Part shown: piece after piece, positions 6,458 to 34,808 of the stretch
Numbering within the stretch: position 1 is the first letter of the stretch
How the letters are laid out: each line of letters starts with the position of its first letter
Assembly: GCA_016199925.1 (NCBI GenBank)
Contig: JACQFT010000246.1
Coordinates: 1 to 35,803, forward strand
Origin: Opitutia bacterium
Lineage (GTDB): Bacteria > Verrucomicrobiota > Verrucomicrobiia > Opitutales > Opitutaceae
Length of the DNA stretch: 35,803 nucleotides
Direction of reading: 5' to 3'
Program-made: the position numbers and the translations under genes
The notes under the pieces: generated by a model
What the model saw: only the letters and a program-made list of their open reading frames with translations
Told to the model about the DNA's origin: nothing
The model's database searches: none

Positions 6458-6500
6458 CGCCCGCTCCCGCCGCACCGCGCACGCGCGAGCGGAAACTTGC

Positions 6501-6530
6501 TTTACTGGCGCCGGAGCCTCCGGCTAAGTT
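6501..6530 (+). promoter_or_regulatory. Candidate promoter with a palindromic spacer before the first GT2-GT2-GT4 gene
   Basis: TTTACT at 6501-6506 and TAAGTT at 6525-6530 are 18 bases apart and end 13 bases before the ATG at 6544. The spacer holds a near-perfect palindrome, GCCGGAG-C-CTCCGGC at 6510-6524, which could be an operator. The layout resembles the candidate before 23751. The evidence is visual only. Confidence 0.3.
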
Positions 6531-6543
6531 CCGGCCCCTTTTC

Positions 6544-12787: not shown

Positions 12788-14878
12788 TCACTTGATCTCG
12801 ATCCGCCGGCAATAGACCCAATCGTAGGCCTTGGACTGCGGGGACCGGGTGGAAAAATGCAACACCTCCCCGGGCACGGCCCGATAGGAAACCGCCGCGC
12901 GCTGGACGCCCCGGTCGGCCGGCCTCTTCACCGGTTCCAGGCGGCGGTGGAATACCTCCCGCGTCCGGCCGCCGGGCGCTTCGCCGGTGATGAAAAAGTC
13001 CACCCCGTCGGTGCGGTCTCCGGCGCGCTCGTAGGCCAGCGGGATAAAACCAAAATCCCATTTGATCTGCGTGGCCCCCGCCGGCGGCCGAATCCAAAGA
13101 TCGCTGTCCGGGTGCATGGAAAGCGCGGCGGCCCCGTCAATCTCCGACAGATCAAAGCCAAATTCAAAACCGGCCCGGAACGGGCCGGGATGCACCAAGG
13201 CGAACGCCGTGCGCGCCACGGCCGGCGGAACGTCAAAAACAGCCTGCGCCGACGGGTCGTTCTTGGGGCGCGGGTAAACCGTGATCTCGCCGTAGCGCCG
13301 GCTGTCCCGCAACCGGGTCTGCACTCCTTTGAGGTAGAGGCGCCGGATGTAGATGTCCGCGACAGGATGGGAGAACGTCGGCTTGTCCGGAGTCATGTCG
13401 AACCGCTTCGTCACCTTGTCGACGAACGGACGATATTTCCTCACGTTCCAAAACACGACGACGGCCGACACATCCTCGTCCGCGAGGTCGTTGAAGGCAC
13501 GATCCAGATACGCGTTGTCGTATTCGAGGCCGTTGCGGATCATCAGGGCGCGGCGCTGCGAATAATACGGAGTCATCGCCGCCCAGTCCGCTCCGGCCAC
13601 CACGATCACCGAGCCCGGAGGAGTCAACTCGCGGATCGCCCGCATGAAGGGCCAGTCGCCGTAGGCGACGGCCGACTGCTGGGTCCGATACCCGCCGGCC
13701 CAGTAGGTCCCGACCAGGCCGGCGAACGGCACCACCACCACCGCCCACGCCGCCCACCGCGCCAATTTCGAATCAAGCACCGCCAGCAGCAGAAGCCCGA
13801 TCGCCGCCGTCAGAAAGACCGCACACGAGTAGAAATAATAGTCCTGATAGGCGTAGGCGTAGGGGAAGAGGATTTGCGCCCCGAAAAAAACCGCCGCCAA
13901 GGCCAGCGGCCACCCGCGCGCCCGGGGAAAGGCCGCCAGACCCGCCAGCAGGCAAAAGCCGATCAACCAGGGCGGCATGATCGCCAGGCCCCAGCCCAGC
14001 AACAGGTCCTTCCACACTACCGACGAGAACATCGAGGAGAACTTGAACAGCCCCCAGTTCCCCAGCGTCAGATTCTCCGAGGTGAAAATATACGCAGACG
14101 CATGGGCGGCCTTGATCGGATCGGTGAACTTGATCCACCAGCGCAGCGCTCCCAGCGCCACGGCGACCGTCGCGAGCCCCCACGCCAGCGTCTTGAGCGG
14201 CACGACCCAACCCCGGCGCGCCCGGAGGTCCCGCCCCAGCAGCCACGCGCCGGCCGCCGCCGCCGGTATCAGCCAGATCGCGAAGGTGGCGCTCTTCACC
14301 AGAGCCGCGACCGTGCCGGCGACCGTGGTGAACGCCAGCCAGCCCCAACTCCGCTTCGCCATCGTCCGCCAGAATCCGAGCAGAAACCACGCGCTGCCCA
14401 TGAACGCCATCGAATCCATCAGGAAGGCGCGCGAATAGAAAATATACACCGGACAGCACAGTGTCAGCGCCAAGACCAGGAGCCGGCGCGGGCGCGAGGC
14501 GACGGCCGCCTCGAGCAGCAGGAAGAGCGCCGGCAGCGACAGATAGAAACACGCCAGCGAGATCGTGCGCGCGGCGAGCAAGTGCGGCCATCCCGTCAGC
14601 CGGCTCAGCCCCACGACGGCCCACTCGTAGAGAGGAACCTCCAGCAGGATCGAGACCCACGGCTTGCCGAGAATCGGCGTTTCGTAGAGCAGGGAGAAAT
14701 TGTTCTGCCGGTCGATGTAGTAAGAGATGATCGCCGTCTGCGACTGGCGAAATTCGTGCCCCGCCATGAAGCCCATCGTCCAATGGTAGGTCGTGAACCA
14801 AAAATGGGCCGCCAGGGCCAAACCGAACACGCCGTAGAGAATCCAGCTCTCCCTCCCCGATGTATCGCGTCCAGACAT
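12788..14878 (-). CDS. GT-C membrane glycosyltransferase with NPCBM-like C-terminus
   Basis: The predicted product has 696 residues on the minus strand, starting at the ATG at 14878 (MSGRDTSGRE). A TTG at 14914 is also in frame but adds twelve residues absent from the paralogue. The first hydrophobic helix (LYGVFGLALAAHFWF) is followed by GHEFRQSQTAII (H41, E42), the likely acidic catalytic loop of an ArnT/PMT-type GT-C enzyme. Many hydrophobic helices follow to about residue 390. The extracytoplasmic part ends in a beta-rich domain with ALSMHPDSDLWIRPPAGA, TDGVDFFI, PADRG and the final DWVYCRRIEIK, matching four other membrane proteins here. It is the closest relative of the frameshifted gene at 4371-6457 and shows what that gene should look like. 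It is the only minus-strand gene among glycan genes and sits between two GT4 paralogues, which suggests an inversion or insertion. Confidence 0.88.
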   Translation of the reverse strand: MSGRDTSGRESWILYGVFGLALAAHFWFTTYHWTMGFMAGHEFRQSQTAIISYYIDRQNNFSLLYETPILGKPWVSILLEVPLYEWAVVGLSRLTGWPHLLAARTISLACFYLSLPALFLLLEAAVASRPRRLLVLALTLCCPVYIFYSRAFLMDSMAFMGSAWFLLGFWRTMAKRSWGWLAFTTVAGTVAALVKSATFAIWLIPAAAAGAWLLGRDLRARRGWVVPLKTLAWGLATVAVALGALRWWIKFTDPIKAAHASAYIFTSENLTLGNWGLFKFSSMFSSVVWKDLLLGWGLAIMPPWLIGFCLLAGLAAFPRARGWPLALAAVFFGAQILFPYAYAYQDYYFYSCAVFLTAAIGLLLLAVLDSKLARWAAWAVVVVPFAGLVGTYWAGGYRTQQSAVAYGDWPFMRAIRELTPPGSVIVVAGADWAAMTPYYSQRRALMIRNGLEYDNAYLDRAFNDLADEDVSAVVVFWNVRKYRPFVDKVTKRFDMTPDKPTFSHPVADIYIRRLYLKGVQTRLRDSRRYGEITVYPRPKNDPSAQAVFDVPPAVARTAFALVHPGPFRAGFEFGFDLSEIDGAAALSMHPDSDLWIRPPAGATQIKWDFGFIPLAYERAGDRTDGVDFFITGEAPGGRTREVFHRRLEPVKRPADRGVQRAAVSYRAVPGEVLHFSTRSPQSKAYDWVYCRRIEIK

Positions 14879-15157
14879 GAGGCCGGAGGAAACGGCGGGA
14901 AATCCAGGACGCAAATAAATACTGGCGGACGCGGCCGGGTCGGGGGGAGGTCCTGCAGCCGCTTCACGGGAGGCCCGGCGCGCTCGCCGCGCTTCACCGG
15001 GGCTTCGCGCCCGAGGCGGCGCGGCTCCAGGGTTCCCAGGCGAAAGACCCCGGTCGGGTTGGCGCGCCGCGGCACGGTTGCACCCGCCGTTTGCTTCGCT
15101 TTACAAGCGGCGGCCGTCCCTCAACGGTAACCGCCCCTCCTTTCCCCCAACCCGATC
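14879..15157. other. Divergent intergenic region with hairpin
   Basis: This gap lies between the minus-strand GT-C gene and the plus-strand GT4 array, so it should hold two promoters. The only AT-rich patch (14913-14922, AAATAAATAC) would read TATTTATTT on the minus strand, about 35-45 bases before that ATG, and could be a -10 region without a clear -35. On the plus strand TTTACA at 15100-15105 resembles a -35, but no good -10 is seen at normal spacing. I see no gene here. Confidence 0.5.
15084..15113. repeat. Ten-base-pair hairpin upstream of the GT4 array
   Basis: CCGCCGTTTG at 15084-15093 pairs with CAAGCGGCGG at 15104-15113, with one G-T pair and a ten-base loop. It ends 44 bases before the ATG at 15158 and overlaps the TTTACA that might be a -35 element. 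No T-run follows. It may be an operator-like palindrome or an RNA hairpin. Confidence 0.5.
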
Positions 15158-19593: not shown

Positions 19594-21834
19594 ATGTCTG
19601 AAAACGCCGGCTGGCAATTCGCCGTGGAAGTCCACCCACCCCAGTGGGCTTTTCCCGCCGGGAAAAGCTGGGTCGCCGGCTGGATTTTCGCCGGCGAAAA
19701 CCGCTTCGTCACCGACCTGCGCGCGTGGGTCGATGGCCGGCCGTTCCTTGGATTGCACGGTTTGCCCAAGCAGGGTTTCGACGAAAAATTTCTCGGCCGG
19801 CCCGGCCCGCCGTATTCCGGCTTTGTCATTCAGCTGAACCCGCACCGCGGCGCCACGATGCTGCGCCTTGAAGCCCGCGACCCCGCCGGACGCTGGACGG
19901 AATTCTTCCGCACCGCCATCACGGTCGCGCCCGAAGCGGCCGACTATCCTCCGCCCGCTCCGTTAAGCGAACGACTGACCGAAGCGACCCTCAGCCTGCT
20001 GAAACTACACGCGCAGCGCCCCGGTCAACCGCTCGCCGCGCTCGCCGACGAGGTCGTGTCGTCGTCGCTGGCCGAACCGCTGAACTCGCTCCCGAATCCG
20101 CCGTTTCACGGCGCGCTGGAGGAGCCGCGCGAGTCGGGTTGGCTCCGCTACGGCCGGTTGTCCGTGACCGGCTGGCTCGCCCACCGCACCGAAAAGATCA
20201 AACACCTCACCGCGCTCGCCGACGCCGTGCAGGAGTCTCCTCTCCGGCTCGGGTTGGCGCGCCCCGATATTGCGCATGTCTTCACCGAGCTCTCCGGCAA
20301 CGACCACGCGCAGTTCGTCGGCCATGTCGACTTGCCCGCGAACCAGAGCACGCCCGCACTGCTCAAGGTTTTTGCCGAACTAGAGAACGGCGAAAAGCAC
20401 CTCGCCTTCGCCCAGCGTTTCACCGCGCACATCCTCGCCGGCGGCGACATTCAACTGCCGCCGCTTTCGCGACCGACATTCGCCCGGGCGTTGTGGGCGC
20501 TGCGCGGTTCCGCCCGCCGCCACGGCCTGCCGCTCGGCGCCGCGAGCGACCTGATCGACCGGGCCCGCGAAGCGTGGGCGATTTACCGCGCCGAGGCGCC
20601 GCACCGACCCAAGCGGCATGCTCCGCGAAAATCCGCGAAGCCTCCGGGCGTGCCCGGCACGCCGCTGCGCATTCTGGTCGTCACGCACAACCTGAATTTC
20701 GAGGGCGCGCCGTGGTTTGTCTTCGAGCTGGCCCGGGCGCTCAGCCGCGAACCCGGCCTCAGCGTGCGCGTGCTCTCACCCGCGGAAGGACCGATGCGCC
20801 GCGTGTTCGCGGAAGCCGGGATGCCGGTGGAAGTCGCCGACCTCTCGCAAGCGTTTGCCGCAACCAGCGCAGCCGAATTCGAGCAAAGCCTGCGCCACGC
20901 GGTCACCCTCGACTGGGCGAACATCGACCTGCTGGTCGCGAACACCATGGTTTCATTCTGGGCCGTGCACCTCGCACGCGCCGCGCGCAAACCGTCGCTG
21001 CTCTACGTCCACGAGAGTTCGGCCATCCGACGCTTCTTCGGCAGGATGCTGGCCCCCGGATTGTTTCCCGTCGTCGAGTCGGCGTTTCAGGTCGCGTCGC
21101 GCGTCGTCTTCACCGCCGCGTCCACGCGCACGGTCTTCGACTACCTCGACAGCAAGGGAAACTTTGAACTGCTGCCGAGTTGGGTCGACGTCGCGCGCAT
21201 CGACGCCTTCGTCGTCGCGCACGACCAGTCCTCGCTACGCCGCAAGCACGGCCTCGACCCCGACGCCGTGCTGCTCGTCAACATCGGCTCGCTCTGCGAA
21301 CGCAAGGGCCAGCACATCTACCTGCGCACCGCTGCGCTGCTGAAAGAGGAACTCCGCTTCACCTACCCCGGGAAGAAAATCCAGTTCGTCATGGTCGGCG
21401 CGAGACCGGGTCTTTACTTGGACTCGCTGCAACAGGAGGCCGACCTCGGCGGACTCGCCAACGTTCTGTTCCTCCCTGAGACCGGCGAAATTTTCGACTT
21501 CTACCGGCTCGCCGACATTTTCGTCTGCACCAGCTTCGAGGAATCCTTCCCGCGCGTGCTGCTGGAATCCGCCGCGTTCCGCCTGCCGATCGTGTCCACC
21601 AACGTGAACGGCATCGCGGAAATGCTCGGCGCCGACGAAGCGTGGCTCGTTCCGCCCGGCGACCGCTACCAGCTCGGCGAAGCGCTCAAGCAAGCCCTCG
21701 CCGCTCATTTCACCGGCGACACCTCTCGGGCGGAGCGCGCACGCGCCGCGATTGTGCAACGCTTTCACGAAGAGCGCTCGCTCCCGCTCCACGTCGCGCT
21801 CGCCCGCACCGTCGTCGCGGCGCACCGTTCCTGA
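19594..21834 (+). CDS. GT4 glycosyltransferase, third of the tandem array
   Basis: The predicted product has 746 residues and starts at the ATG at 19594. The first module has WVAGWIFAG and HGLPKQGFDEKF; the second has PFHGALEEPRESG, LSVTGWLAHR and GEKHLAFAQRF. The GT4 domain starts at about 359 (RILVVTHNLNFEGAPWFVF) and carries NTMVSFWAVHLARAARKPS, LLYVHESS, NIGSLCERKGQH near 567 and an EX7E motif in TSFEESFPRVLLESAAF near 644. All the expected GT4 residues are there. The C-terminal half is strikingly close to the GT4 domain of the 6544 fusion (RRKHGLDPDAVL and the CERKGQHIY block), which suggests recent duplication or gene conversion between stand-alone and fused copies. The next gene starts with GTG three bases after its stop. 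Confidence 0.91.
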   Translation: MSENAGWQFAVEVHPPQWAFPAGKSWVAGWIFAGENRFVTDLRAWVDGRPFLGLHGLPKQGFDEKFLGRPGPPYSGFVIQLNPHRGATMLRLEARDPAGRWTEFFRTAITVAPEAADYPPPAPLSERLTEATLSLLKLHAQRPGQPLAALADEVVSSSLAEPLNSLPNPPFHGALEEPRESGWLRYGRLSVTGWLAHRTEKIKHLTALADAVQESPLRLGLARPDIAHVFTELSGNDHAQFVGHVDLPANQSTPALLKVFAELENGEKHLAFAQRFTAHILAGGDIQLPPLSRPTFARALWALRGSARRHGLPLGAASDLIDRAREAWAIYRAEAPHRPKRHAPRKSAKPPGVPGTPLRILVVTHNLNFEGAPWFVFELARALSREPGLSVRVLSPAEGPMRRVFAEAGMPVEVADLSQAFAATSAAEFEQSLRHAVTLDWANIDLLVANTMVSFWAVHLARAARKPSLLYVHESSAIRRFFGRMLAPGLFPVVESAFQVASRVVFTAASTRTVFDYLDSKGNFELLPSWVDVARIDAFVVAHDQSSLRRKHGLDPDAVLLVNIGSLCERKGQHIYLRTAALLKEELRFTYPGKKIQFVMVGARPGLYLDSLQQEADLGGLANVLFLPETGEIFDFYRLADIFVCTSFEESFPRVLLESAAFRLPIVSTNVNGIAEMLGADEAWLVPPGDRYQLGEALKQALAAHFTGDTSRAERARAAIVQRFHEERSLPLHVALARTVVAAHRS

Positions 21835-21837
21835 ATC

Positions 21838-23697
21838 GTGCAAGAATCCGTCGCCAGTTTCCATCATCTCGAATGGCCCGCGCCCGGCGCCCGGGTGCGG
21901 GGTCCGCTGCTCACGCTGCGCGGCTGGGCCGTAGGCAAACCGGGCGGCGCGATCGCCGACATTCGCGCCCGCACGCCGGCGCACACCGCCTTGGGTCTCT
22001 ACGGACTGCCGCGCACCGACCTCGCCGCGCATTTCCAAAGCAAGCAGAGCTGGTTGCCGGCCGAATTCGTCGTCGTGCTTCCGGTCGCCGACGGCACCGT
22101 GAGCGTTGTGCTCGAGTTTATGGATGTGCACGGCCAGTGGCAACTGCTGCGGGAGTTCTCGTGCACGGTGTCGCCCGACGGCGAGAGCGACCCGCGCATC
22201 GCCGGAGAATTTGACGCGGCGCACGGCTGGCTTGGCCGGAGCCCGCACGCGCCTTTCCACGGACATCTCGACGACCCAGCAGCCGAATTGAATCACGGCC
22301 GCGCGACCGTCTTCGGCTGGTTGCTGCACGCGGAGCAGCCGATCAAAACGGTGTTCGCCTCGACCGACCTGCTCGTTTTCAACCAGCTCGAACACGGGCT
22401 CACCGACGACTCGCTCGCGGCCAAAGTGCCTGCGCTGCCGCAAGCGCGCACCGCCCGACTGCGCGGCACCGTGGACGCACCGGCCACGCTCCTCGCTCCG
22501 GCTTGCCTGCGCGTCTACGCACAACTGGCGGACGACTCCGTGCACCTGTGCTTCGCCCGACGGTTCACCCCGGCGCAGCAACCGGCGGCTCCGCTCCAAC
22601 TCGGTCAGCAAATTCCGCGCACTCCGCCGGTGAGCCTGCCGCCATTCCCCTCGGGCCGGCCCCGCCGGCTTTTGCTCGCGACGCGCAATCTCCACCGCGA
22701 CGACGCCACCCTGCGCGCGCTCGATGTCGGTGGGTTCTTGGTCTCGTCACGGCGCTGGGCCGTGCGACTCGTCACGACCGTCGACGGTCCCTTTCGCGCC
22801 AGTTTCGAGGCGGCCGGAATCCCGGTGCAAATCGTGGACCCGCGGCATTTCTTCGCCGCCCAAACCCCAGCCGACACCGAGACAGCCTTGGCCACGCTGG
22901 CCCGGCAAATCTGGTGGAGACACCTCGACGCAACGGTTGCGTTCGACTCGCTCTGCGATTGGTTGCTCACCCTCTCCCGGCAACACCTCGTGCCGGCCTT
23001 CGCCGACTGGCCGCAGTCCGCGGCCGACCCCCAAGGCGATAGTGTCCCGAATTTCTCCGGCGCCGTTTCCCCGTGGCACAGCACCGGACTACTCGGCGCT
23101 GCTCGCGACGAAATTCGCCAAGGGCTCGGAATCATGGCCGGAACCCTGATGGCGGTGTCGCCGTCCGCGTCGTCGCCCGGCCACGGCGGTCCTCAAATGT
23201 TGCAAGCGGCCGCATGGCTGCGACTGCTCGCGCCGGCCCGTGCCGCGCGCTGGCGCTTTGACTTCCTCGACGGACGCGATTCCACCACAGCCCGCGCACT
23301 CCGGTCTGACACCGCCTTGAACCAAGTCCCCAACTTCGCCGTGCACGACAGCATCACCCCGAACTGGCTGGCCGCAGCCGATCTCGTGTGCCACGCCGGC
23401 GACGGGCCGACGACTCTGCGCCCGTTGCTTGATGCTGCGGCGTTGGGCACGCCGCTCGTCGCCGGAACCGGCCACGGCATTGCTGCACTTCTGAACTCAG
23501 GCGCCGAAATCGATCTGGTGTCGCCCAACAATCCTCTCGCACTCGCGCACGCGCTGATCGCTCACGCGGCCAACCCTGACGCCGCGGCCCGGCGCGCCCG
23601 CGCGGCCCAAAGACGCATTCGCGAACAGCACAACCCGCAGCGCCTGCTTCCGCTCTGGCAGGCGACGCTCGAGTCGGCCCTCGCGGCCAACCGCTGA
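21838..23697 (+). CDS. Degenerate GT4-like protein of the tandem array, probable pseudoenzyme
   Basis: The predicted product has 619 residues and starts at the GTG at 21838, coupled to the previous gene by a 3-base gap. The N-terminal beta modules are well kept (LTLRGWAVGKP, YGLPRTDLAAHF; then PFHGHLDDPA, VFGWLLHAE). The GT4 part, from about residue 278, keeps the fold outline but not the motifs. HNLNFEGAP is RNLHRDDAT. The NTMVSFWAVHLA to YVHES stretch is unrecognisable. The RKGQH loop is replaced by a Ser/Pro/Gly stretch (SPSASSPGHGGPQ). In the EX7E motif the first Glu is Pro and the second is Asp (GDGPTTLRPLLDAAALG). The frame is fully open over 1.8 kb, so selection appears to hold the protein. 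It may be a regulatory or scaffold partner of its neighbours, or may bind rather than transfer sugar. It is about 120 residues shorter than its siblings. Confidence 0.85.
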   Translation: MQESVASFHHLEWPAPGARVRGPLLTLRGWAVGKPGGAIADIRARTPAHTALGLYGLPRTDLAAHFQSKQSWLPAEFVVVLPVADGTVSVVLEFMDVHGQWQLLREFSCTVSPDGESDPRIAGEFDAAHGWLGRSPHAPFHGHLDDPAAELNHGRATVFGWLLHAEQPIKTVFASTDLLVFNQLEHGLTDDSLAAKVPALPQARTARLRGTVDAPATLLAPACLRVYAQLADDSVHLCFARRFTPAQQPAAPLQLGQQIPRTPPVSLPPFPSGRPRRLLLATRNLHRDDATLRALDVGGFLVSSRRWAVRLVTTVDGPFRASFEAAGIPVQIVDPRHFFAAQTPADTETALATLARQIWWRHLDATVAFDSLCDWLLTLSRQHLVPAFADWPQSAADPQGDSVPNFSGAVSPWHSTGLLGAARDEIRQGLGIMAGTLMAVSPSASSPGHGGPQMLQAAAWLRLLAPARAARWRFDFLDGRDSTTARALRSDTALNQVPNFAVHDSITPNWLAAADLVCHAGDGPTTLRPLLDAAALGTPLVAGTGHGIAALLNSGAEIDLVSPNNPLALAHALIAHAANPDAAARRARAAQRRIREQHNPQRLLPLWQATLESALAANR

Positions 23698-23708: not shown

Positions 23709-23738
23709 TTGCCCTCGACACCGCGCCCCGCCTTAGTT
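23709..23738 (+). promoter_or_regulatory. Candidate promoter before the second GT2-GT2-GT4 gene
   Basis: TTGCCC at 23709-23714 and TTAGTT at 23733-23738 are 18 bases apart and end 12 bases before the GTG at 23751. Spacing and distance to the start match the candidate before the paralogous gene at 6544. An in-frame TTG at 23709 lies inside this element and is a less likely start codon. Confidence 0.3.
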
Positions 23739-23750
23739 TCGTCTGCCACC

Positions 23751-26700
23751 GTGAACGAAAATTCCGCCTACATCTTCGACATCGAGGAACCCTGCCGATG
23801 GACCTTTGACGGCGAACCCGTGTGGATCAGCGGCTGGTTCGTTTCGAAGACCGGCGCGGTCTTCTCCGACATCCGCGCCGTGATCGACGGCGTGCCGCAC
23901 CTGGGCATCTTCGGGCTGCCCCGCGAAAACATCGAGCGCCAGCACCGCGGCTATTTCGGTCTCCCGCACTGCGGATTCTCCCTGCGCGTGCGCCCGCCGC
24001 GCGGCGCGAAACTGCTGCGCCTTGAACTGCTCGACGCCGGGCAGCACTGGGTCGAGATCTGGCGGACCAAACTCAAGGTTCGCCGCGGCCCGCGCCCCGG
24101 AGCGCGGCTGCAACTGGAGTTGCTCCCGGCCCAGCTCGAACGCCTGCTGCAGGCGCGCCGCGCCGACCCCACCGGCGATTTGCGCGCGATCGCGGAGCAA
24201 CTCGCCGCCGACATCGCGACGGTGCCGCTCGACACGCTGCCCAATCCGCCGTTCTTCGGCGCCCTTGAAGATCCTCTCGCCTTCGGCGGCTCGCAATTCG
24301 GCAAGCTTCGCGTCAACGGCTGGATCATCCACCAGGAGCAGCGCATCACGCGCCTGCTCGCGAGCACGCATCCGCTCGTCGAAAACGCGATGGATTACGG
24401 CCACCGCGAACGCGCCGAGGCCGGCCGGCTTTTCCCCGACCATCCCTCCGCCGCCCGCTCGCAGTTCTTCGGCATGGTCGACATCGACGAGCATGTGCCC
24501 GACCCGGTTTGCCTGAAAATCTTTGCCGACCTCGAAGACGGCACGCGGCACCTCGTCTTCGTCCGCCGGTTCCAGCAACGCAGCTGCACCCAGTTGGAGA
24601 AACCGCGCCCGGCCTTCAGCCGCGCCACGTTTGCCGAAATCGCGCTGATTTTCTTCGCCGCCTGCCGCCGCCGGCACATTCGCCTCGGCGCGCCCGGTCC
24701 GCTCTGGCGCGCCGGGTGGCAAGCCTACCGCGAATTCCGGCGCGATGCACCGCCGGTCATCATTCCGCACACCGAGACTCCCTACGCCGCGTGGGCCCGC
24801 ACCAACCGGCTGACCCCGCGTCTCGCACAAACGCTCGCCGACGCAGTCCAGCAAACCGCCGCGGCCGGCGGGCCGCGCTTCGCCGTGCTGGTCGACACCG
24901 CCGGTTGCAGCGACCCGCAACTGCGCGAACTCGCCGCGTCGCTGGACGCGCAGCTTTTTCCCAACTGGGAGGCGTGGTTTGTCGGTGAGCATTGCCCGCC
25001 GCTGGCGAACGCCCGCTGCCACTTCGAACGCAGCGCCGGTCCAAAGGATCTGGCGCGCGCGCTCAACTCCGCCGCCCACCAAGCCCAGGCAACCCATCTC
25101 GCCTTGTTGCCCGGCCATTCGCGCCTGTCGCCCGACGCCTTCGCCGAGATCGCGCGGCAACTCGCGGCTCAGCCGGACCTCGAGCTCGTCTATACCGACG
25201 AAGATTTGATGGACGACCGCGGCGCGCGCTCGGCCCCAAAGTTCAAACCCGAGTGGAGCCCGACGCTGGCACTGTCCGGCTTGTTTCCCGGCAATCTCTG
25301 CGTCGTGCGCATGAATCGCTTCGTCGCAGCCGGTTCTTTCCGCGACACCTTTTCGTTCGTGCCGTGGTTCGACTTGCTCCTGCGCGTCGGTGATCAGTTG
25401 ACGACCGCGCAGGTCGCGCATCTGCCCTTGGTTTGCCATCACGGTCGTGCCTCGGTGGCGCCCGAGGTCGACCTCGCCGACCCGTCCGTCGAGCAGACCC
25501 GGCAGGCGCTGGCCGAGGCAGCCCGGCGGCGCGGCTGGGCGGCGACGGCGTTTCTGCCGGAGATCGCGCACCACCGTCGGCTGCGCTGCCACCAATTGCG
25601 CTGGGACGAAAAGATTCTCACGCGCCTGCAGGTGACCATCGTCATCCCCACGCGCGACAAGCTCCATCTCCTGCAAGAGTGCATCGAGCTTTTGGACGAG
25701 ACCGTCGACTGGCGCTTCGTGAAACTGGTGATCGTCGACGACCACTCGCGCGACGCCGACGCGGTGAACTACCTCGGCGCCATCCAGCGGCGCAACGATC
25801 TGCTTTGCACGGTCGTCCGCCCGCCGGATCCCGGAGCGCCGTTCAATTACTCGCGGCTCGTCAATGCCGCGCTGCCGCACATCGACACGCCGCTCGTGCT
25901 GCACCTCAACAACGACGTCAACGCCCTCGAACGCGGCTGGCTCGAGGAGATGGTCGGCTGGTTCACCCAGCCCGATGTCGGCGTCGTCGGCGCGAAGCTC
26001 GTTTATCCCGAAAAATCACTCAACCACACCGGCATAATCGTCGGCCCGCACGGCGGGCTCGCCGACACGCCATATGCCAAGGTCTTCGAGCGCGACGTGC
26101 CGGAGATCGAATGGCACTCGCTTGCTCGCGAAGTGTCGGCGGTCACCGGCGCCTGCCTGCTGACGCGCACGGAAATCTACCGCGCACTCGGCGGCTTTGA
26201 CGAAGCCGACTTCGGCGTTTCCTACAACGACGTGGACTACTGCCTGCGCGTGCGCGCCGCCGGCCATCGCGTCATCTACACGCCGCAGGCCAAGCTCATG
26301 CACTGGGGCAGCGCGACGCGCGGCGTGACATTCGACGAGGCCGAGCACATCGCGTTCGTCCGCCGCTATCCGTCGTGTCGCGACCCGTATTGCAGCCCGC
26401 ACCTCGAGCTGCGCGACGGCAAGCTCGCCTGCCGCGGCGCCGTGCATGCCCGCCCGGATCGCGCCGGCCAACTCCGTCTGCTGCTGCTCACGCACAACCT
26501 CAACCTCGAAGGCGCGCCGCTGTTCCTCCTCGAATATGCGACCTACCTGGCGCGCGAAGCGGGTTTCCACCTGGAAGTGCTGGCGGCGCAGGACGGCCCG
26601 TTGCGCGCCGCCTACGAGGCGCTCGGCGCGCACATCACTCTGGTCGACGCCGCCCCGCTCTACGCCGCGGCGGACGAGGAAATTTTCCACGGACGCATCG

Positions 26701-27656
26701 CCGACATCGCGCATCAGCTCGACTGGGAGCACATCGACCTCGTGGTCTGCAACACGCTCGTGAGCTTCTGGGGCGTGCATCTCGCCCGGCGCGCGGGCAA
26801 GCCCTCGATGTTCTACATTCACGAAAGCTCGTCGATCTTCCGGTTCTTCGAGCAAAAACTGCGGCTGGAAATGCACCGGCTCGTCGGGCAGGCGTTCGAA
26901 CAGACCACCGCCGCGCTGTTTCTCTGCCAGGCCACCCGCGCCTACTACGAGGATCACAATCTCCACGGCAATTTCCGCCTCGTGCCGAGCTGGATCCGGA
27001 TCGAAACGATGGAGGAGTTTCGCCGCACGCACGCGCGCGCCGAACTGCGGCGGAAACACGGATTCGCCGACCACGACGTCGTCATCGCGAACATCGGCAC
27101 CGTCTGCGAGCGGAAGGGACAGCACATTTTCATTCGGGCCGTCGATCACTTCAACCACCACAATCGCGGCCGCGGGCCGGTCAAGTTCGTGCTCGTCGGC
27201 GCCCGGCCGGGCATCTACCTCGACCTGCTCCAGGGCGACATCGCCAAGCTCGGCTTGGAAAACCTCACCCTCGTCCCCGAGACGAACGAGGTGTTCGACT
27301 TCTTTGTGCTGGCGGACCTGTTCGTCTGCACGAGCTACGAGGAGTCGTTCCCGCGCGTCGTGATGGAGGCGATGGCGTTCCGCACGCCGATCGTGACGAC
27401 CGACGTGCACGGCATCGCCGACATGGTGCGGCAGCGCGCCGAGGCGTATCTGGTCGCCGCCGGCGACGTCGAAGGTCTCTCGCGCATGATGCGCACCTGC
27501 CTCGCGAAGGAACGCAGCGGAAAATCCCTGACCCCAACCGCCTACTCGAAGGCGCTGCGGTATTACGATTATCACAAGGTGCTGCCGCGCCATGTGGCGC
27601 TCGCCCGCGAGGCCGTGCTGGCCGAAAGTGAGCCGGCCTCTCCGAACAAAGATTAA
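23751..27656 (+). CDS. GT2-GT2-GT4 fusion glycosyltransferase with a dead first GT2 domain
   Basis: The predicted product has 1,301 residues from the GTG at 23751 (VNENSAYIFDIEEP). Residues 1-320 hold the two beta modules (WISGWFVSK, FGLPREN; PFFGALEDP, LRVNGWIIHQ). The first GT2 domain begins at about 377 (FAVLVDTAG) and keeps YTDEDLMDD, but DHDD of its paralogue is PGHS near 457 and IADDAS is FVGEHC, so metal and nucleotide binding should be lost. The second GT2 starts at about 628 (VTIVIPTRDK), with HLNNDVN near 718, GACLLTR and YNDVDYCLR near 825, and looks active. The GT4 starts at about 910 (LLLTHNLNLEGAPLFLL), with CERKGQH near 1119 and an EX7E motif in TSYEESFPRVVMEAMAF near 1193, also intact. 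It is therefore probably bifunctional. The gene is the same type as 6544-10542 and closes the GW-GT4 series. Confidence 0.92.
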   Translation: MNENSAYIFDIEEPCRWTFDGEPVWISGWFVSKTGAVFSDIRAVIDGVPHLGIFGLPRENIERQHRGYFGLPHCGFSLRVRPPRGAKLLRLELLDAGQHWVEIWRTKLKVRRGPRPGARLQLELLPAQLERLLQARRADPTGDLRAIAEQLAADIATVPLDTLPNPPFFGALEDPLAFGGSQFGKLRVNGWIIHQEQRITRLLASTHPLVENAMDYGHRERAEAGRLFPDHPSAARSQFFGMVDIDEHVPDPVCLKIFADLEDGTRHLVFVRRFQQRSCTQLEKPRPAFSRATFAEIALIFFAACRRRHIRLGAPGPLWRAGWQAYREFRRDAPPVIIPHTETPYAAWARTNRLTPRLAQTLADAVQQTAAAGGPRFAVLVDTAGCSDPQLRELAASLDAQLFPNWEAWFVGEHCPPLANARCHFERSAGPKDLARALNSAAHQAQATHLALLPGHSRLSPDAFAEIARQLAAQPDLELVYTDEDLMDDRGARSAPKFKPEWSPTLALSGLFPGNLCVVRMNRFVAAGSFRDTFSFVPWFDLLLRVGDQLTTAQVAHLPLVCHHGRASVAPEVDLADPSVEQTRQALAEAARRRGWAATAFLPEIAHHRRLRCHQLRWDEKILTRLQVTIVIPTRDKLHLLQECIELLDETVDWRFVKLVIVDDHSRDADAVNYLGAIQRRNDLLCTVVRPPDPGAPFNYSRLVNAALPHIDTPLVLHLNNDVNALERGWLEEMVGWFTQPDVGVVGAKLVYPEKSLNHTGIIVGPHGGLADTPYAKVFERDVPEIEWHSLAREVSAVTGACLLTRTEIYRALGGFDEADFGVSYNDVDYCLRVRAAGHRVIYTPQAKLMHWGSATRGVTFDEAEHIAFVRRYPSCRDPYCSPHLELRDGKLACRGAVHARPDRAGQLRLLLLTHNLNLEGAPLFLLEYATYLAREAGFHLEVLAAQDGPLRAAYEALGAHITLVDAAPLYAAADEEIFHGRIADIAHQLDWEHIDLVVCNTLVSFWGVHLARRAGKPSMFYIHESSSIFRFFEQKLRLEMHRLVGQAFEQTTAALFLCQATRAYYEDHNLHGNFRLVPSWIRIETMEEFRRTHARAELRRKHGFADHDVVIANIGTVCERKGQHIFIRAVDHFNHHNRGRGPVKFVLVGARPGIYLDLLQGDIAKLGLENLTLVPETNEVFDFFVLADLFVCTSYEESFPRVVMEAMAFRTPIVTTDVHGIADMVRQRAEAYLVAAGDVEGLSRMMRTCLAKERSGKSLTPTAYSKALRYYDYHKVLPRHVALAREAVLAESEPASPNKD

Positions 27657-27945: not shown

Positions 27946-29973
27946 ATGAAATTGTTCAGCAAAACGTCTCCCGCGCTGTTGGTCTTCTTCGGCGTTTTTT
28001 TCGTCACCTTGTTGTTTTCCGCCTTTACCAACCATATCTGGGAAGACTATTTCATCACCTACCGGTCCAGTAAGAATCTGGCGACCGGTCACGGCTTGGT
28101 TTTCAACCACGGTGAGAAGCTCCATACGTTCACGTCGCCTCTAGGTGTCTTGCTCCCGGCCGTCTGCAGCTTGCTCACCGCGAACCGTTCCGATGTCGGG
28201 GCGCTTTGGCTATTTCGGATCATGTGCGCGCTGGCCTTGGGTGGAGCCGCCGTGTTTTTGCTGCAAACGGCGACCATACTGCGCTACAGCGGCCTCGTGG
28301 CTCTTTTCGTCGTCACTTGGTTTGGCACGGATGCGAAGATCCTCGATTTCTCCAGCAACGGCATGGAGACGGCGTTCATGATGCTTTTTCTCGCCTATGC
28401 ATTCTGGGCGCATCTGTCTCCCGAACCACGGCAATGGCGTCATCTCGGTTTGGCTTGGTCCGGCCTCATGTGGACGCGGCCTGACAGTTTCGTTTATGTG
28501 GGCCTGCTCGCGGCCGGTTTTTGGTTTTTCAACGAGCCGGCGGGTTCCAAACGCAGCCGGAGTGAATTGCTCGCGGTTTATCTGAAAGCGGGACTGCTCA
28601 CCACGCTGCTCTATGCGCCGTGGCTCGCGTGGGCCGCGTGGTATTACGGCACGCCGGTGCCGCACACGATCATCGCGAAGGGAGGGATCGGCGATCCGCA
28701 CACGCTCACGGGACTTCTCCTAACGGCCGTCAGACTTCCCTACTTGGCGTGGACTCAATCTGCGTCGCTCGAACTGGCCTTTCTGCCGTCCTACTATATG
28801 ATTGGAGATTGGCCCAACACGACCATCATAGCTTCGCGCGTGCTGGCGACTATCTGCGCCTTGCTCTGGCTGGTGCCCAAAGCGCGGTTGGAAACACGCG
28901 TGGCTTCATTCGCGTTCTTCGGAGCCCATGTTTATCTGACCTATTTCCCCTATTTTCCGTTTCCATGGTATCTGCCCAGCACGACCATTCTCGGTTTCAT
29001 TTGTCTTGGTGGGGTATTGGCGCAAGCCGTGGGCACCGTGGCGCGCGCAAATTTCGCGCGAGGGGTGGCGATCAGCTTGGCGTCTCTCTTTCTGGCGCTT
29101 AGTCTGTGGTCGACCGTCCAGGTTGCCCGGCAGGTGAAAGCCCAGCAGACAATCGTTGAGGAGGGTAATCGACGCCGCATCGGTGAGTGGTTGCATGAAC
29201 ACGCCGCGCGCGGTGACACCGTTTTCATGGAGCCGCTCGGCTATATCGGTTTTTACTCTGGCCTGAAGACCTACGATTTTCCAGGCATGTCCTCCAGCGA
29301 GATGGTCCGTGCGCGCAAGCTGGTCGGCAACGAGTGGAGCGTGCTTATCCAATACCTTCAACCAATCTGGCTCGTGCTGCGCCCGTCGGAAGTAGAGCGA
29401 ATAAACCGCGAGACCCCCGGACTCCTGCGCGACGCTTACCAAATGGCGCAGGAATTCAATCGGTTGGCTGACGTGGAAAAACTTGAGACCTATGGCAAGC
29501 GATATCTTGAACTCGACTCTCGGTTCACCGTCTACCACCGCAACCGGCAACTCCGTCACGACGCGCCTTACGCCGAAATCTCCAGCCTCTATCCGTCGCC
29601 GATGCAGAACATCGAAGGCTTTGAAATGCTCATGGTGCATGCGCCGGGCGTGATGGTGGTCAGAATTCCTCCAGACGCCAAATTCGTGGACGGGCACTAT
29701 GGGTTTTCGCCCGGTGCCGACGAAGGGGAACCTCGCACCGACGGGGCTGTTTTCCGCATCGAACTGAGATCACGCGATCGCAGCGTCACGCTGTTGAACG
29801 AAGCCGTCGACCCTGCGACGCTTCCCGAACATCGCAAAGTGCAGCACTACCATTTGGCGCTCCCGGCTGATCGAGAGGCCGACTCTGCCCTGACTTTTCT
29901 TACCCTGCCCGGCAACACCACCACCAAGGACTGGACGCATTGGAGCGTTCCGGATTTCCACGCCAAACCCTGA
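27946..29973 (+). CDS. GT-C membrane glycosyltransferase, AftB-like N-terminus
   Basis: The predicted product has 675 residues and starts at the ATG at 27946 (MKLFSKTSPALL). After the first membrane helix comes HIWEDYFITYRSSKNL (E33, D34), then GHGLVFNHGEKLHTFTSPLG. This is the acidic-loop pattern of AftB-like and related polyprenyl-phosphate-sugar-dependent GT-C transferases. Many hydrophobic helices follow to about residue 400. The extracytoplasmic C-terminal region ends in a beta-rich domain with MLMVHAPGVMVVRIPPDA, GHYGFSPGA, RTDGAVF and KDWTHW, which matches the module in the other GT-C proteins of the window. It probably transfers a sugar from a lipid-phosphate donor in the periplasm. 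Codon use and leader are more AT-rich than the neighbours, hinting at a separate origin. Its TGA shares one base with the next ATG (ATGATG-like overlap at 29971-29975). Confidence 0.87.
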   Translation: MKLFSKTSPALLVFFGVFFVTLLFSAFTNHIWEDYFITYRSSKNLATGHGLVFNHGEKLHTFTSPLGVLLPAVCSLLTANRSDVGALWLFRIMCALALGGAAVFLLQTATILRYSGLVALFVVTWFGTDAKILDFSSNGMETAFMMLFLAYAFWAHLSPEPRQWRHLGLAWSGLMWTRPDSFVYVGLLAAGFWFFNEPAGSKRSRSELLAVYLKAGLLTTLLYAPWLAWAAWYYGTPVPHTIIAKGGIGDPHTLTGLLLTAVRLPYLAWTQSASLELAFLPSYYMIGDWPNTTIIASRVLATICALLWLVPKARLETRVASFAFFGAHVYLTYFPYFPFPWYLPSTTILGFICLGGVLAQAVGTVARANFARGVAISLASLFLALSLWSTVQVARQVKAQQTIVEEGNRRRIGEWLHEHAARGDTVFMEPLGYIGFYSGLKTYDFPGMSSSEMVRARKLVGNEWSVLIQYLQPIWLVLRPSEVERINRETPGLLRDAYQMAQEFNRLADVEKLETYGKRYLELDSRFTVYHRNRQLRHDAPYAEISSLYPSPMQNIEGFEMLMVHAPGVMVVRIPPDAKFVDGHYGFSPGADEGEPRTDGAVFRIELRSRDRSVTLLNEAVDPATLPEHRKVQHYHLALPADREADSALTFLTLPGNTTTKDWTHWSVPDFHAKP

Positions 29974-32372
29974 TGCCCCGACGCGACTCCCAACGATTGG
30001 TGCTACTCGGACTCGTGCTCTTGCTCGGCGCATGGGTGTTCTGGCTGCGCTGGCCGGGCTTGGCGTTTTCCGTCTGGAATGTCGACGAAGCCATCCATGC
30101 CGCCGCCGCCCGGACGATTCTCGACGGCGGCGTGCTCTATCGCGACGCCATCGACCAACGCACGCCCCTGACCTATTACGCCGTGGCCGGCCTGTTTCGG
30201 GTTTTCGGCGAGAACAATGCCTGGGCCCTGCACGCGGCCACCGCGGGACTGATCGCGCTGACCGCGGCGGGACTTTTTCTGATCGGCCGGCGCTGGCCCG
30301 GGTCGATGTCCGGGGGGTGGGCCGCGGCGGTTTTCTGCGCCCTGTCGACGAATCTCTTTTTTGCCGGCGACGCTTTTGCGGCCAACACCGAGTGGGCGGT
30401 CGCGTTTTTCACGACTTGGTCGGTCTGGTGGTTCTGGCGCAACTGGGAAGGCGCGAAGTTCTGGCCGGCTTTCGGCGCCGGCGCGGGCTTCGGCTGCGCC
30501 TTTCTCGCGAAGCAGCCCGGGATGCTCGACTTCGGCGCGCCGCTCGCCGTGGTCGTCTGTCTCTGGCGCCAGCGTCGCTTGAGCGGTGCGGCGGCGGGCA
30601 CGCTGCTGGGCGGCCTCGTCGCCGGATTCGGGACGGTGACCGTGGCCACGTTCGCCTACTTCGCCGCGCACGGCACGCTCTGCGATTTCTACCAATACGC
30701 CTGGACCTACAACCTCGTTTACTACGGGCCGGAGATCACGTTCGGCGACCGTGTTTTCGCGTTCGCCGCGATCGTCCCCAAATTGTGGACCCACTATCCG
30801 GCGATCCTGGCGGCCCTGCTGCTGGCGGCCGGTTCGGCGCTGGTGCAACTGGTGCAACAACGTCCGACGCCCGCGGAGGAGCTGGAGAATCCACCCACCC
30901 TGTTTTTGCTTTTGTGGGTCGCGCTCTCGCTCGCCGGCGCGGCGGCGAGCGGCCGCGACTACGACCACTATTACATCCAGTGCTTGCCGGCCCTTTCGCT
31001 GCTGGCCGCCGCCGGCCTCGCGCGCGCCGGCGAAGGCTGGCGCTCGCACCTGGGTCGCTGGCAAAAATATGGCGCCGGACTCCTGCTGCTCGCGGCCGGG
31101 TGGAGCGTGCTCGTGTCGCCCGTGCGGGGGCGTTCGCCCGCCGGGCTCGCGCCGGACCCGGCGTTGCGGTCGGCGGATTTTGTCCGGCGACTCACCGCGC
31201 CCGACGAACGCATTTTCGTTTGGGGCTACAACCCCGACATCTATCTTTTCGCCGACCGCAAACCGGCTTCGCGTTTTCTCTACTGTTCGTTCCTGACGGG
31301 CCTGATCCCCTGGACCAACTTCGCGCCGGGAGTGGACACCCGCTACGCCATCGTGCCCGGCACGATGGAAACCCTGCTCGCCGAGCTGGAGGAACGGCGG
31401 CCGACCTTTCTGGTCGACTGCAGCGCCGGTCCGCACCGGCGGTTCGACAAATATCCGCTCGCGATGTTTCCGCGGCTGAACGCTTGGGTCGAAGCACACT
31501 ACTCGGTCGCCGAGCCCGAGCAGTTTGTGCCGCAGGGCTTCCGGCTCTTCTTGGTCAACGATTCAGCCCGCCGCGCTCCCGTGCGGCTCGCGGGCGGGCC
31601 GGCCGGCAGCAACCTGACTGCGGCCGGTGTTTCAGGTCCGCCGCAGGTCGATCCCGTGCCGACCGAATTCGCGCTGGTCGGCGCGGAAACCGGCGGTCGG
31701 CTCCAGCGGCTGGAGTTGCTCATCAACGGCACGCCGTTCGACGCCGTGAGTTTTCAGCCGACGCAGACCATGTCGGTGCGGATGCGCGTGCCCTTTGATC
31801 GCCTCGGTGCGGGCAAATATCGGCTGGCCGTGCGCGCCGTCGCTGCGAATGGCGAATCGCGCGTCGGCGACGCCCTCGCCGTGGAGTGCGGCGCCGCGGC
31901 CCTTGGCGCCGCACAGGCCGCCGAATTCGCCTTGCCGCACCTGGCCGCGACCGTCCCGCCGCTCAAAGTGCGCGCGCCGAACGGCGCCCAGGCCCGGATG
32001 GAGGAAGGGCGGATGGTTTACTTCGCCCACGCGCCGTCGATGCTCGCCTACGAATTGCCCGCCGGCGCGACCGCGATCCGCGGCCGCTACGGTTTCCGCC
32101 CCGGAGCGTGGGCCGCGACCAACCCCGGCCGCACCGACGGCGCGGATTTTTCGATCTCGCTAATTCGCCCCGGCGGCACCCCTCTGCTGTTGCATCATCG
32201 CGCACTTCGTCCGGTCGAGCAACCCGCCGACCGGGCCGAACAGGAATTCAACCTCACCCTCCCCGCCGGCGCCCGTGGTCGGCTGGAGTTCAACATCACC
32301 CCGGGCCCGGCGGGCAGCGCCGCCAGCGACTGGACTTACTGGGCGGACCTCCTGCTGATCAGTTCCCACTAG
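29973..32372 (+). CDS. GT-C membrane glycosyltransferase, ArnT/PMT-like, with NPCBM-like C-terminus
   Basis: The predicted product has 799 residues from the ATG at 29973 (MPRRDSQRLVLLG), which overlaps the previous stop by one base. An upstream in-frame TTG at 29940 is less likely. A first membrane helix (LVLLGLVLLLGAWVFWL) precedes WNVDEAIHAAAARTIL (D38, E39), then GGVLYRDAIDQRTPLTYY, the classic acidic first loop of ArnT/PMT-type glycosyltransferases. Further hydrophobic helices reach about residue 390. The periplasmic part has an additional beta-rich stretch and a final domain with MVYFAHAPSMLAYELPAGA, RTDGADFSI, PADRA and ASDWTYWADLLL, as in its neighbours. It should transfer sugar from a polyprenyl-phosphate carrier; the acceptor is unknown. 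Confidence 0.88.
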   Translation: MPRRDSQRLVLLGLVLLLGAWVFWLRWPGLAFSVWNVDEAIHAAAARTILDGGVLYRDAIDQRTPLTYYAVAGLFRVFGENNAWALHAATAGLIALTAAGLFLIGRRWPGSMSGGWAAAVFCALSTNLFFAGDAFAANTEWAVAFFTTWSVWWFWRNWEGAKFWPAFGAGAGFGCAFLAKQPGMLDFGAPLAVVVCLWRQRRLSGAAAGTLLGGLVAGFGTVTVATFAYFAAHGTLCDFYQYAWTYNLVYYGPEITFGDRVFAFAAIVPKLWTHYPAILAALLLAAGSALVQLVQQRPTPAEELENPPTLFLLLWVALSLAGAAASGRDYDHYYIQCLPALSLLAAAGLARAGEGWRSHLGRWQKYGAGLLLLAAGWSVLVSPVRGRSPAGLAPDPALRSADFVRRLTAPDERIFVWGYNPDIYLFADRKPASRFLYCSFLTGLIPWTNFAPGVDTRYAIVPGTMETLLAELEERRPTFLVDCSAGPHRRFDKYPLAMFPRLNAWVEAHYSVAEPEQFVPQGFRLFLVNDSARRAPVRLAGGPAGSNLTAAGVSGPPQVDPVPTEFALVGAETGGRLQRLELLINGTPFDAVSFQPTQTMSVRMRVPFDRLGAGKYRLAVRAVAANGESRVGDALAVECGAAALGAAQAAEFALPHLAATVPPLKVRAPNGAQARMEEGRMVYFAHAPSMLAYELPAGATAIRGRYGFRPGAWAATNPGRTDGADFSISLIRPGGTPLLLHHRALRPVEQPADRAEQEFNLTLPAGARGRLEFNITPGPAGSAASDWTYWADLLLISSH

Positions 32373-32408
32373 ACGACATGAACAACTTTTGCCAATTAGG
32401 GAACTCCT

Positions 32409-34772
32409 ATGGCTGCTGAACCCACTCCCCCCTTGATCCCCGCCCCGCTCGCGAAGGCTCTGGGCTGGGGCGCGCTGTATGCGTTGCTCATCGCCGTCTC
32501 CTTCACCTTTCCGTTGATGCCGTCGGCGGAGCTTGATCCGTCCTGGCGCATGGCGCTGGGCTACTTCTTCAACCACGGCATGCAGTTCGGGCGCGACGTG
32601 ATCTTTACCTACGGGCCGCTCGGCTTCCTGATGGGCAAGACTTTTTCCGGCCTGCAATTCTGGAGTCTCCTCGTCGGGCAAGGCGTGCTCGCGGTCATCG
32701 CCGCCACCGTGATCCTCTGGCAGGGGCGCCGTCTCGACGGCAGCAGCCGCATCATCTACTTCGCCTTCTTCCTCCTGTTCGGCACGACCTATGAGGATGC
32801 CCTGCACATGCTGGTCATCGGCATCCTCGGGTTCGAGCTGCTCCGCAACGGGCACGCGCCGTGGAAGCACCGCACCGCCGTCATCGCGGTGGTGCTCGCG
32901 TTCTACGGCCAGATCAAGTTCACGGATTTTCTGCTCGGGCTGATCGCCGTCACGATCGCGGCGGCCTACGGAATTTGGCGGCGCCGCCGGCGCGAATCGG
33001 CCCTGCTCGTCCTCTGGTTTCTGGGCGCTTACCTGGCGATCTGGGTGCTGTGCGGACAGAATCTCGACAATCTGCCTGCCTATTTTTCGGGCTCATGGCA
33101 GATCAGCGACGGCTATGTCTGGGCCATGGGCTTCCCCTCGCCCGAAGCGCCGCTCTGGAAGGCGCTCGTCATCCTCGCCGCCCTGGCCGGCTACGGCGCC
33201 CTGCATCTGTTCCTCAACCCCGACAAGCCCCGCGCCGCGGCCAACGCGCTGTTCTTCGGCGCCTTCGTGTTTCTCAACTGGAAGCACGGCTTCGTGCGCG
33301 CCGACGGCCACATGATCGGGTTTTTCTACTGCGCGCTCCTTCCGATCATCGCCTACCCGACTCTGCTCGAAGATCCGCCGCGCCTGCGCGTGGCGCATCG
33401 CTGGGCTTTTCTCGGCGCGCTGCTGCTCAGCTTGTGGGGATTGGAAAACGCCCTCCCCGGCGTCGTGCGCGAGTCGCTGGGCCTTTTTCAAGCCAAGGCC
33501 TGGGGCAACCTCGAATCCGTTTTCCGCTGGCAAAGTTTCCGGCAAAACTACCGCGACCACCTCACCGTCGCCCGCCAGGCCGCCGACCTCGCCCAAACCC
33601 GCGAGCTGGTCGGCGACGCGACGGTGGATATCCTCGGCTTCGAGCAGGGCGTGGCGCTCTTCAACAAATTCAACTACCGCCCCCGCCCGGTGATCCAAAG
33701 CTACTCGGCCTACACTCCGAAGCTGGCCCGGCTGAACGGCGACTTCTACGCCTCCGACCGGGCGCCCGAGTTCGTGCTGATGAAGACCCAGACCATCGAC
33801 GGCCGGCTGCCGACGATGGACGACTCCGAAGTGCTGCTGATTCTCGCCCACCGCTACGACTACCTCCAGACCGACCGCGGATTCCAGCTCTGGAAACGGA
33901 GCGACCGCCCCTTCGACCGCACCACCATCACGCCGAAGCCCCTGCGCCAAGCCACCGTGGAGCTGGGCACCCAGCTCCTGTTCGAAGATCTCTCGGCGCA
34001 ACCCCTGTGGCTGCGCGTGGACTTGCAGCCGTCGTTCCTCGGCCGGCTCCGCAGCTTTTTCTACAAACCGCCGCAGGTGACGCTCACGATTCAGGACGTC
34101 GCCGGCAATCCCCGCAGCTACCTCATGCCGCTGCCGCAGGGCCGCACCGGATTTATCCTCAGCCCCATCGTCGAAGACACCGTCGACTACATGCATTTCG
34201 CCAGCAACCGGCCGGAAAAAGCCGTGCGCGGCATCACGCTCTCCGTCGCGCCCGCCGACCGGAAATTTTTCGCCCCGGCGGCCCGGGTGGAAATCTCCGG
34301 CTTGCCCCCGGCTTACTCGGGCCTGAAATACTTCACCAACATCAACGAGAAACTGTTCCACATGTTCAAGAACTACCCCGTCGCCTTTGACTCGGCGACC
34401 GGCTTCTCCGAATCCATGATCGACGGCAAGGAGGTCGCCGTGATGCACGCGCCCAGCCAGATGGTGTTCGATCTCCCCGCCGGCGCCACCATCATCAGCG
34501 GCCAGTTCGGCATGCTCGAAGGCACCTACACCAACGGCGGCAAAACCAACGGCGCCGTCTTTGTCGTCTATTGGTCCAACGGCTCCGACCGCGTCGACCT
34601 GTTCCAAAAATATCTGAACCCGGTGAGCAAATTCGAGGACCGCGGCCTCCACGACTTCAAGGCGAAGCTCACCGGCCTCACCGGCGGCAAACTTTACCTC
34701 GAGGTGAAACCCGGCCCCTACAACGACCACGCGTGGGACTGGACGGCCTGGACCGACATCCGGATCAAGTAG
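32409..34772 (+). CDS. GT-C-like polytopic membrane protein with NPCBM-like C-terminus
   Basis: The predicted product has 787 residues from the ATG at 32409 (MAAEPTPPLIPAP); an AGGGA about eight bases before it is a modest ribosome-binding site. The N-terminal loop reads ELDPSWRMALGYFF, then GRDVIFTYGPLGFL, a conserved pattern of a little-studied family of polytopic proteins that look like GT-C enzymes, with Asp43 as the candidate catalytic residue. About half of the protein is hydrophobic helices. From about 670 the C-terminal domain has VAVMHAPSQMVFDLPAGA, TNGAVFVV, EDRGLHD and the end AWDWTAWTDIRIK, shared with four other proteins here. A role in sugar transfer or in assembly of the glycan at the membrane is inferred from the context and the shared module. 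It follows the previous stop by 36 bases. Confidence 0.82.
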   Translation: MAAEPTPPLIPAPLAKALGWGALYALLIAVSFTFPLMPSAELDPSWRMALGYFFNHGMQFGRDVIFTYGPLGFLMGKTFSGLQFWSLLVGQGVLAVIAATVILWQGRRLDGSSRIIYFAFFLLFGTTYEDALHMLVIGILGFELLRNGHAPWKHRTAVIAVVLAFYGQIKFTDFLLGLIAVTIAAAYGIWRRRRRESALLVLWFLGAYLAIWVLCGQNLDNLPAYFSGSWQISDGYVWAMGFPSPEAPLWKALVILAALAGYGALHLFLNPDKPRAAANALFFGAFVFLNWKHGFVRADGHMIGFFYCALLPIIAYPTLLEDPPRLRVAHRWAFLGALLLSLWGLENALPGVVRESLGLFQAKAWGNLESVFRWQSFRQNYRDHLTVARQAADLAQTRELVGDATVDILGFEQGVALFNKFNYRPRPVIQSYSAYTPKLARLNGDFYASDRAPEFVLMKTQTIDGRLPTMDDSEVLLILAHRYDYLQTDRGFQLWKRSDRPFDRTTITPKPLRQATVELGTQLLFEDLSAQPLWLRVDLQPSFLGRLRSFFYKPPQVTLTIQDVAGNPRSYLMPLPQGRTGFILSPIVEDTVDYMHFASNRPEKAVRGITLSVAPADRKFFAPAARVEISGLPPAYSGLKYFTNINEKLFHMFKNYPVAFDSATGFSESMIDGKEVAVMHAPSQMVFDLPAGATIISGQFGMLEGTYTNGGKTNGAVFVVYWSNGSDRVDLFQKYLNPVSKFEDRGLHDFKAKLTGLTGGKLYLEVKPGPYNDHAWDWTAWTDIRIK

Positions 34773-34808
34773 CCCGCCGGCCGCCCACCGCCCCGCCGGA
34801 CCTCTCCG

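Follow-up and report, generated by a model that had tools for sequence, protein, structure and literature searches.

Partners that keep a glycosyltransferase (GT) fold but not its activity are, to our knowledge, known from few systems only. One described case comes from the accessory Sec system, whose O-GlcNAc transferase is the pair GtfA-GtfB: GtfA is a GT4 enzyme, and GtfB, encoded with it, is an inactive partner that binds the acceptor (PMC12809243, PMC6973325). The locus described here carries a GT4-like gene, hereafter the pseudo-GT, whose product is probably catalytically dead and a non-catalytic helper subunit. As in GtfB, and as judged from the sequence, the catalytic residues are lost and the acceptor-side half of the fold is retained. 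The pseudo-GT differs from the GtfA-GtfB system in its N-terminal beta modules, its apparent origin from a local paralogue, and its lineage and operon. The substrates also differ, being a serine-rich adhesin for GtfA-GtfB and presumably a polysaccharide for this operon. The pseudo-GT gives no DUF1975-type Pfam match (E <= 1), and the likeness is one of how the proteins would work rather than of established homology.

Other points of comparison are HepE (Alr3699, PDB 4xsu) and other GT4 enzymes such as BshA and WaaG, which have the GT-B fold in common with the pseudo-GT. HepE, however, is a donor-binding GT solved with UDP-glucose, and the motifs considered below are absent from the pseudo-GT. 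Within the operon itself, the active GT4 paralogues at 10553, 15158, 17386 and 19594 likewise have a GT4 domain behind their beta modules, but keep all motifs and their helical spacers.

Because inactive GT-B partners such as GtfB exist, this kind of protein is already known. No report of GT pseudoenzymes with loss of EX7E, of Opitutaceae polysaccharide operons or of this pseudo-GT family with its beta modules and setting was found in the open-access literature searched. A preliminary description of this DNA had stated that such a protein would be new for its family; no description of the family or its setting was indeed found in that literature, but the concept of an inactive partner is not new, GtfB being the precedent.

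Gene and domain organisation

The window, that is the whole stretch of DNA analysed, is one complete contig of 35,803 bp from a draft genome (~3.8 Mb, 264 contigs), and its features are listed in Table 1. The pseudo-GT frame encodes 619 amino acids from a GTG start and is uninterrupted. It begins 3 nt past the stop codon of the GT4 gene that precedes it, so that the coupling reported in the preliminary description is close but without overlap, while the frame is open as was stated there.

Two N-terminal beta modules are followed by a GT4-like GT-B domain. Such paired modules, with GW and GLPR motifs, are common to the N-terminal halves of the GT4 paralogues between 10553 and 23697, and no Pfam family matched them in those GT4 proteins that were scanned. 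Alignment and comparison of secondary structures show that the pseudo-GT is ~125 aa shorter than its active paralogues; it lacks the helical spacers that follow module 1 and those that precede the GT domain, and the region between the Rossmann halves is also short by ~45 aa. The GW and GLPR motifs of the beta modules are retained on the alignment with the paralogues, as had been described. The acceptor-side half carries the clade-specific motifs DDATLRALD, DGPLR and QIWWxHLDAVAVFDP.

Table 1. Features of the pseudo-GT locus and of the GT-only version in genome G114. Positions are those of the window unless another locus is named.
Feature	Position	Strand	Basis or remark
Pseudo-glycosyltransferase gene	21838..23697	+	Open frame; orthologues in 16 further genomes; dN/dS 0.20-0.34
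N-terminal beta module 1, residues 1-112	21838..22173	+	Strands in AF2 model; no Pfam family
Beta module 2, residues 130-247	22225..22578	+	AF2 model; beside the 05/07 paralogues in the module tree
GT-B N-terminal (acceptor-side) Rossmann half, residues 272-395	22651..23022	+	Alignment, conservation, AF2 model
Asp289 replacing Gly of GAP	22702..22704	+	Asp in 15/15 covered orthologues; Gly in 78/78 covered active paralogues
GT-B C-terminal (donor-side) half, residues 430-619, degenerate	23125..23694	+	Weak PF13524/PF13692 matches
Pro524 replacing first Glu of EX7E	23407..23409	+	95-domain alignment
Asp532 replacing second Glu of EX7E	23431..23433	+	Always Glu in active paralogues (79/79), never in orthologues (0/16)
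Active GT4 upstream of the pseudo-GT, a candidate partner (orthologue group 09)	19594..21834	+	All motifs present
Downstream (degenerate GT2)-GT2-GT4 gene (orthologue group 11)	23709..27656	+	First GT2 domain without DXD
First GT2 domain of the 23709-27656 protein, residues about 390-620	24876-25568	+	Motif comparison
GT-only pseudo-GT of G114	L114 7577-8614	-	Without N-terminal beta modules

Loss of active-site motifs

Motifs were counted in 95 aligned GT domains from the same operons, comprising 16 pseudo-GT orthologues and 79 active paralogues. The His of HES, the Arg and Lys of RKG and both Glu residues of EX7E are invariant in the active paralogues (79/79). Among the pseudo-GT orthologues the His, the Lys and the second Glu are each retained in 0/16, and the Arg of RKG and the first Glu each in 1/16; no orthologue with intact motifs was found among the 16. 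The window protein has lost YVHES and RKG altogether, and carries the replacements at GAP and EX7E given in Table 1. The changes to GAP, YVHES, RKG and EX7E that the preliminary description had reported are therefore seen both against the GT4 neighbours and across the 95-domain alignment.

Pfam matches of the pseudo-GT are weak, although above the cut-off, and confined to the C-terminal part (PF13524, 31.2 bits; PF13692, 30.5 bits), with no match to a GT4 N-domain. The three tandem neighbours and the gene at 10553 score 79-95 bits with PF13692 and also match GT4 N-domain families. Of the features expected in a catalytic GT4, the GT-B fold and the relation to GT4 are present, but EX7E is absent, as are RKG and the His. 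As these defining residues were tested and are missing, the protein is not classed as a catalytic GT4.

An AF2 model, built from a folding alignment of 11 rows that excludes the orthologues found by whole-genome search, keeps the GT-B fold (pLDDT 80), with a pTM of 0.51 that is low and leaves the domain arrangement uncertain. Its best Foldseek match in the PDB is HepE (E about 1e-14, 16-18% identity), which is also the best match for the model of the active neighbour P0002 (pLDDT 84). Structure prediction, proposed earlier as a check, thus returned a retained fold closest to HepE.

It is quite unlikely that the pseudo-GT is still an active GT with an unconventional donor site or mechanism. The retained fold would be compatible with this, as would the Arg of PRV, which is present in 14 of the 16 orthologues, and the conservative replacement of the second EX7E Glu by Asp in 12 of them. 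The His, Lys and Glu sites have, however, been lost together, the GAP loop has exchanged its Gly for Asp, and of the two halves of the domain it is the donor half that evolves fast.

Orthologues and origin

A profile of the dead GT domain was searched over all 252 genomes of the family Opitutaceae and found the domain in 17, belonging to five genera, with best scores of 130-599 bits; active paralogues score <=80 bits against it. In a sample of 286 genomes drawn from across the class, nothing outside the family matched at E <= 1e-10. The orthologues form one clade in a quick GT tree (SH-aLRT 100). Wherever the flanks could be read, the group 09 orthologue is the immediate upstream neighbour of the gene and the group 11 orthologue follows it, in some genomes after additional DNA; wherever measured, the gene starts 1-10 nt past the upstream stop. 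The beta modules group with those of the 05/07 paralogues (module tree, SH-aLRT 99), which points to an old duplication of a local paralogue within the operon.

In the related genomes G015, G040, G070, G092 and G129 the operon is present but lacks the pseudo-GT, 11 coming after 09, and the gene is therefore accessory and dispensable. Group 09 is present in genomes with and without the pseudo-GT, and no partner gene tracks it. Co-occurrence with paralogue 07 was suggestive, but was not used because G131, G132 and G188, which lack the pseudo-GT, also carry 07-like genes. The version in G114 consists of the GT domain only (345 aa); it is open, with an ATG 2 nt past the upstream stop, and shows that the dead GT domain can persist without the beta modules.

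Selection on the pseudo-GT

Among the closer genomes, the pseudo-GT has a dN/dS (Nei-Gojobori) of 0.20-0.34, and the active gene upstream of it gives 0.09-0.27 for the same genome pairs; the values are approximate because dS is near saturation. By region, dN/dS of the pseudo-GT is 0.21 in module 1, 0.17 in module 2, 0.22 in the acceptor half, 0.29 in the middle, 0.43 in the donor half (residues 481-619) and ~1 in the linker. Across nine orthologues 120 of the 619 positions are invariant, and no broken frames or stops were seen in the genomes examined. Neither a disrupted frame nor an overall dN/dS near 1, as would be expected of a pseudogene, was thus found, and it is strongly supported that the pseudo-GT is kept by purifying selection and is not decaying.

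The gene does evolve faster than its neighbours, is absent from several genomes and has a relaxed donor half, all of which might be expected of a decaying duplicate heading for loss. Against this, its frame is open in the genomes examined across the five genera, dN/dS is low overall and about 0.2 in three domains, QIWWxHLDAVAVFDP is fixed in the clade and the coupling is conserved. Decay was rejected on dN/dS and the conserved coupling; it is already largely refuted and very improbable. The argument against simple decay in the preliminary description is upheld by the dN/dS against orthologues, which is well below 1, and by the orthologues themselves, their synteny, the single clade and the domain-only version in G114.

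Constraint is unevenly spread over the GT domain. The acceptor half is more conserved than the donor half in 117 of 120 pseudo-GT pairs, while in the active groups it is the more conserved half in 1/91 (04), 7/91 (05), 6/171 (09), 9/120 (11) and 5/21 (07) pairs. Active paralogues conserve the donor half most, and the pseudo-GT orthologues reverse this order. As the donor half is only weakly constrained, part of the GT domain may be drifting.

Proposed role

Taken together, the lost donor motifs, the relaxed donor half and the retained acceptor half suggest a non-catalytic subunit that binds the acceptor. That it is a partner of the neighbouring GTs, with a role like that of GtfB, is an analogy to which we give about even weight. 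As a GT4-like protein without the catalytic and donor-phosphate motifs it would be non-enzymatic, its inactivity being read from the motifs. The acceptor-side Rossmann half, usually together with the beta modules, would bind the glycan as it grows, or its carrier, and the pseudo-GT would hold this acceptor for active GTs, most likely the upstream GT4 or the downstream GT2-GT4 protein, so modulating acceptor choice or efficiency. The upstream GT4 is favoured as partner because of its position and coupling, although it is found in genomes lacking the pseudo-GT as well. We infer such a role from sequence and regard it as plausible.

A more doubtful reading is that the protein is not a partner but a scaffold or glycan-binding protein, whose beta modules and dead fold organise the whole GT assembly or set polymer length and which would not pair with any single enzyme. 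The beta modules are the best conserved parts of the protein (mean identity among orthologues 0.63 for module 1 and 0.66 for module 2) and are common to the paralogues, and the neighbouring group 11 protein carries another dead domain, both of which fit this reading. G114, however, retains the GT domain without the modules, and nothing in the pseudo-GT sequence points to length control. The preliminary description had suggested a partner or a chain-length regulator; that the protein is kept by selection is strongly supported and a partner role is plausible, but regulation of chain length gained no specific support.

With the active parents alongside, lineages with and without the gene, and a natural domain-only version, the transition from a GT to a non-catalytic subunit can be tested here, as can what such a subunit adds. 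The case also warns that a GT4-like frame may not encode an enzyme, and that the number of GT genes may be an unsafe guide to the number of glycosidic linkages.

A second degenerate domain and the wider operon

In the downstream protein, the first GT2 domain looks dead too. Its DXD is lost (PGHS vs DHDD) in 18/18 orthologues read, and the GAQDIDLFLR motif of the catalytic-base region is also missing from all 18, whereas the equivalent GT2 domain of the 5821-10542 protein keeps both in the orthologues read. Two adjacent genes would therefore carry dead GT domains. The GT2 domain, unlike the pseudo-GT, is found in genomes both with and without the pseudo-GT. It is conceivable, though unlikely, that the two form a non-catalytic acceptor-handling module steering the active domains of a polymer synthase, with the pseudo-GT as an optional, lineage-variable specificity subunit.

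Several mechanically called frames in the window (with starts at 5821, 454 and 3377) overrun the genes upstream of them, for example 4451-6457, which overlaps 5821-10542, and their true starts are therefore probably further in. The regions 12788-14914 (minus strand) and 27946-35801 (plus strand) encode large proteins (the complete ones of 675-810 aa) that match Pfam and NCBIfam hardly or not at all; that at 12788-14914 has a weak PMT_2 match, and up to three copies of its gene are present in related operons.
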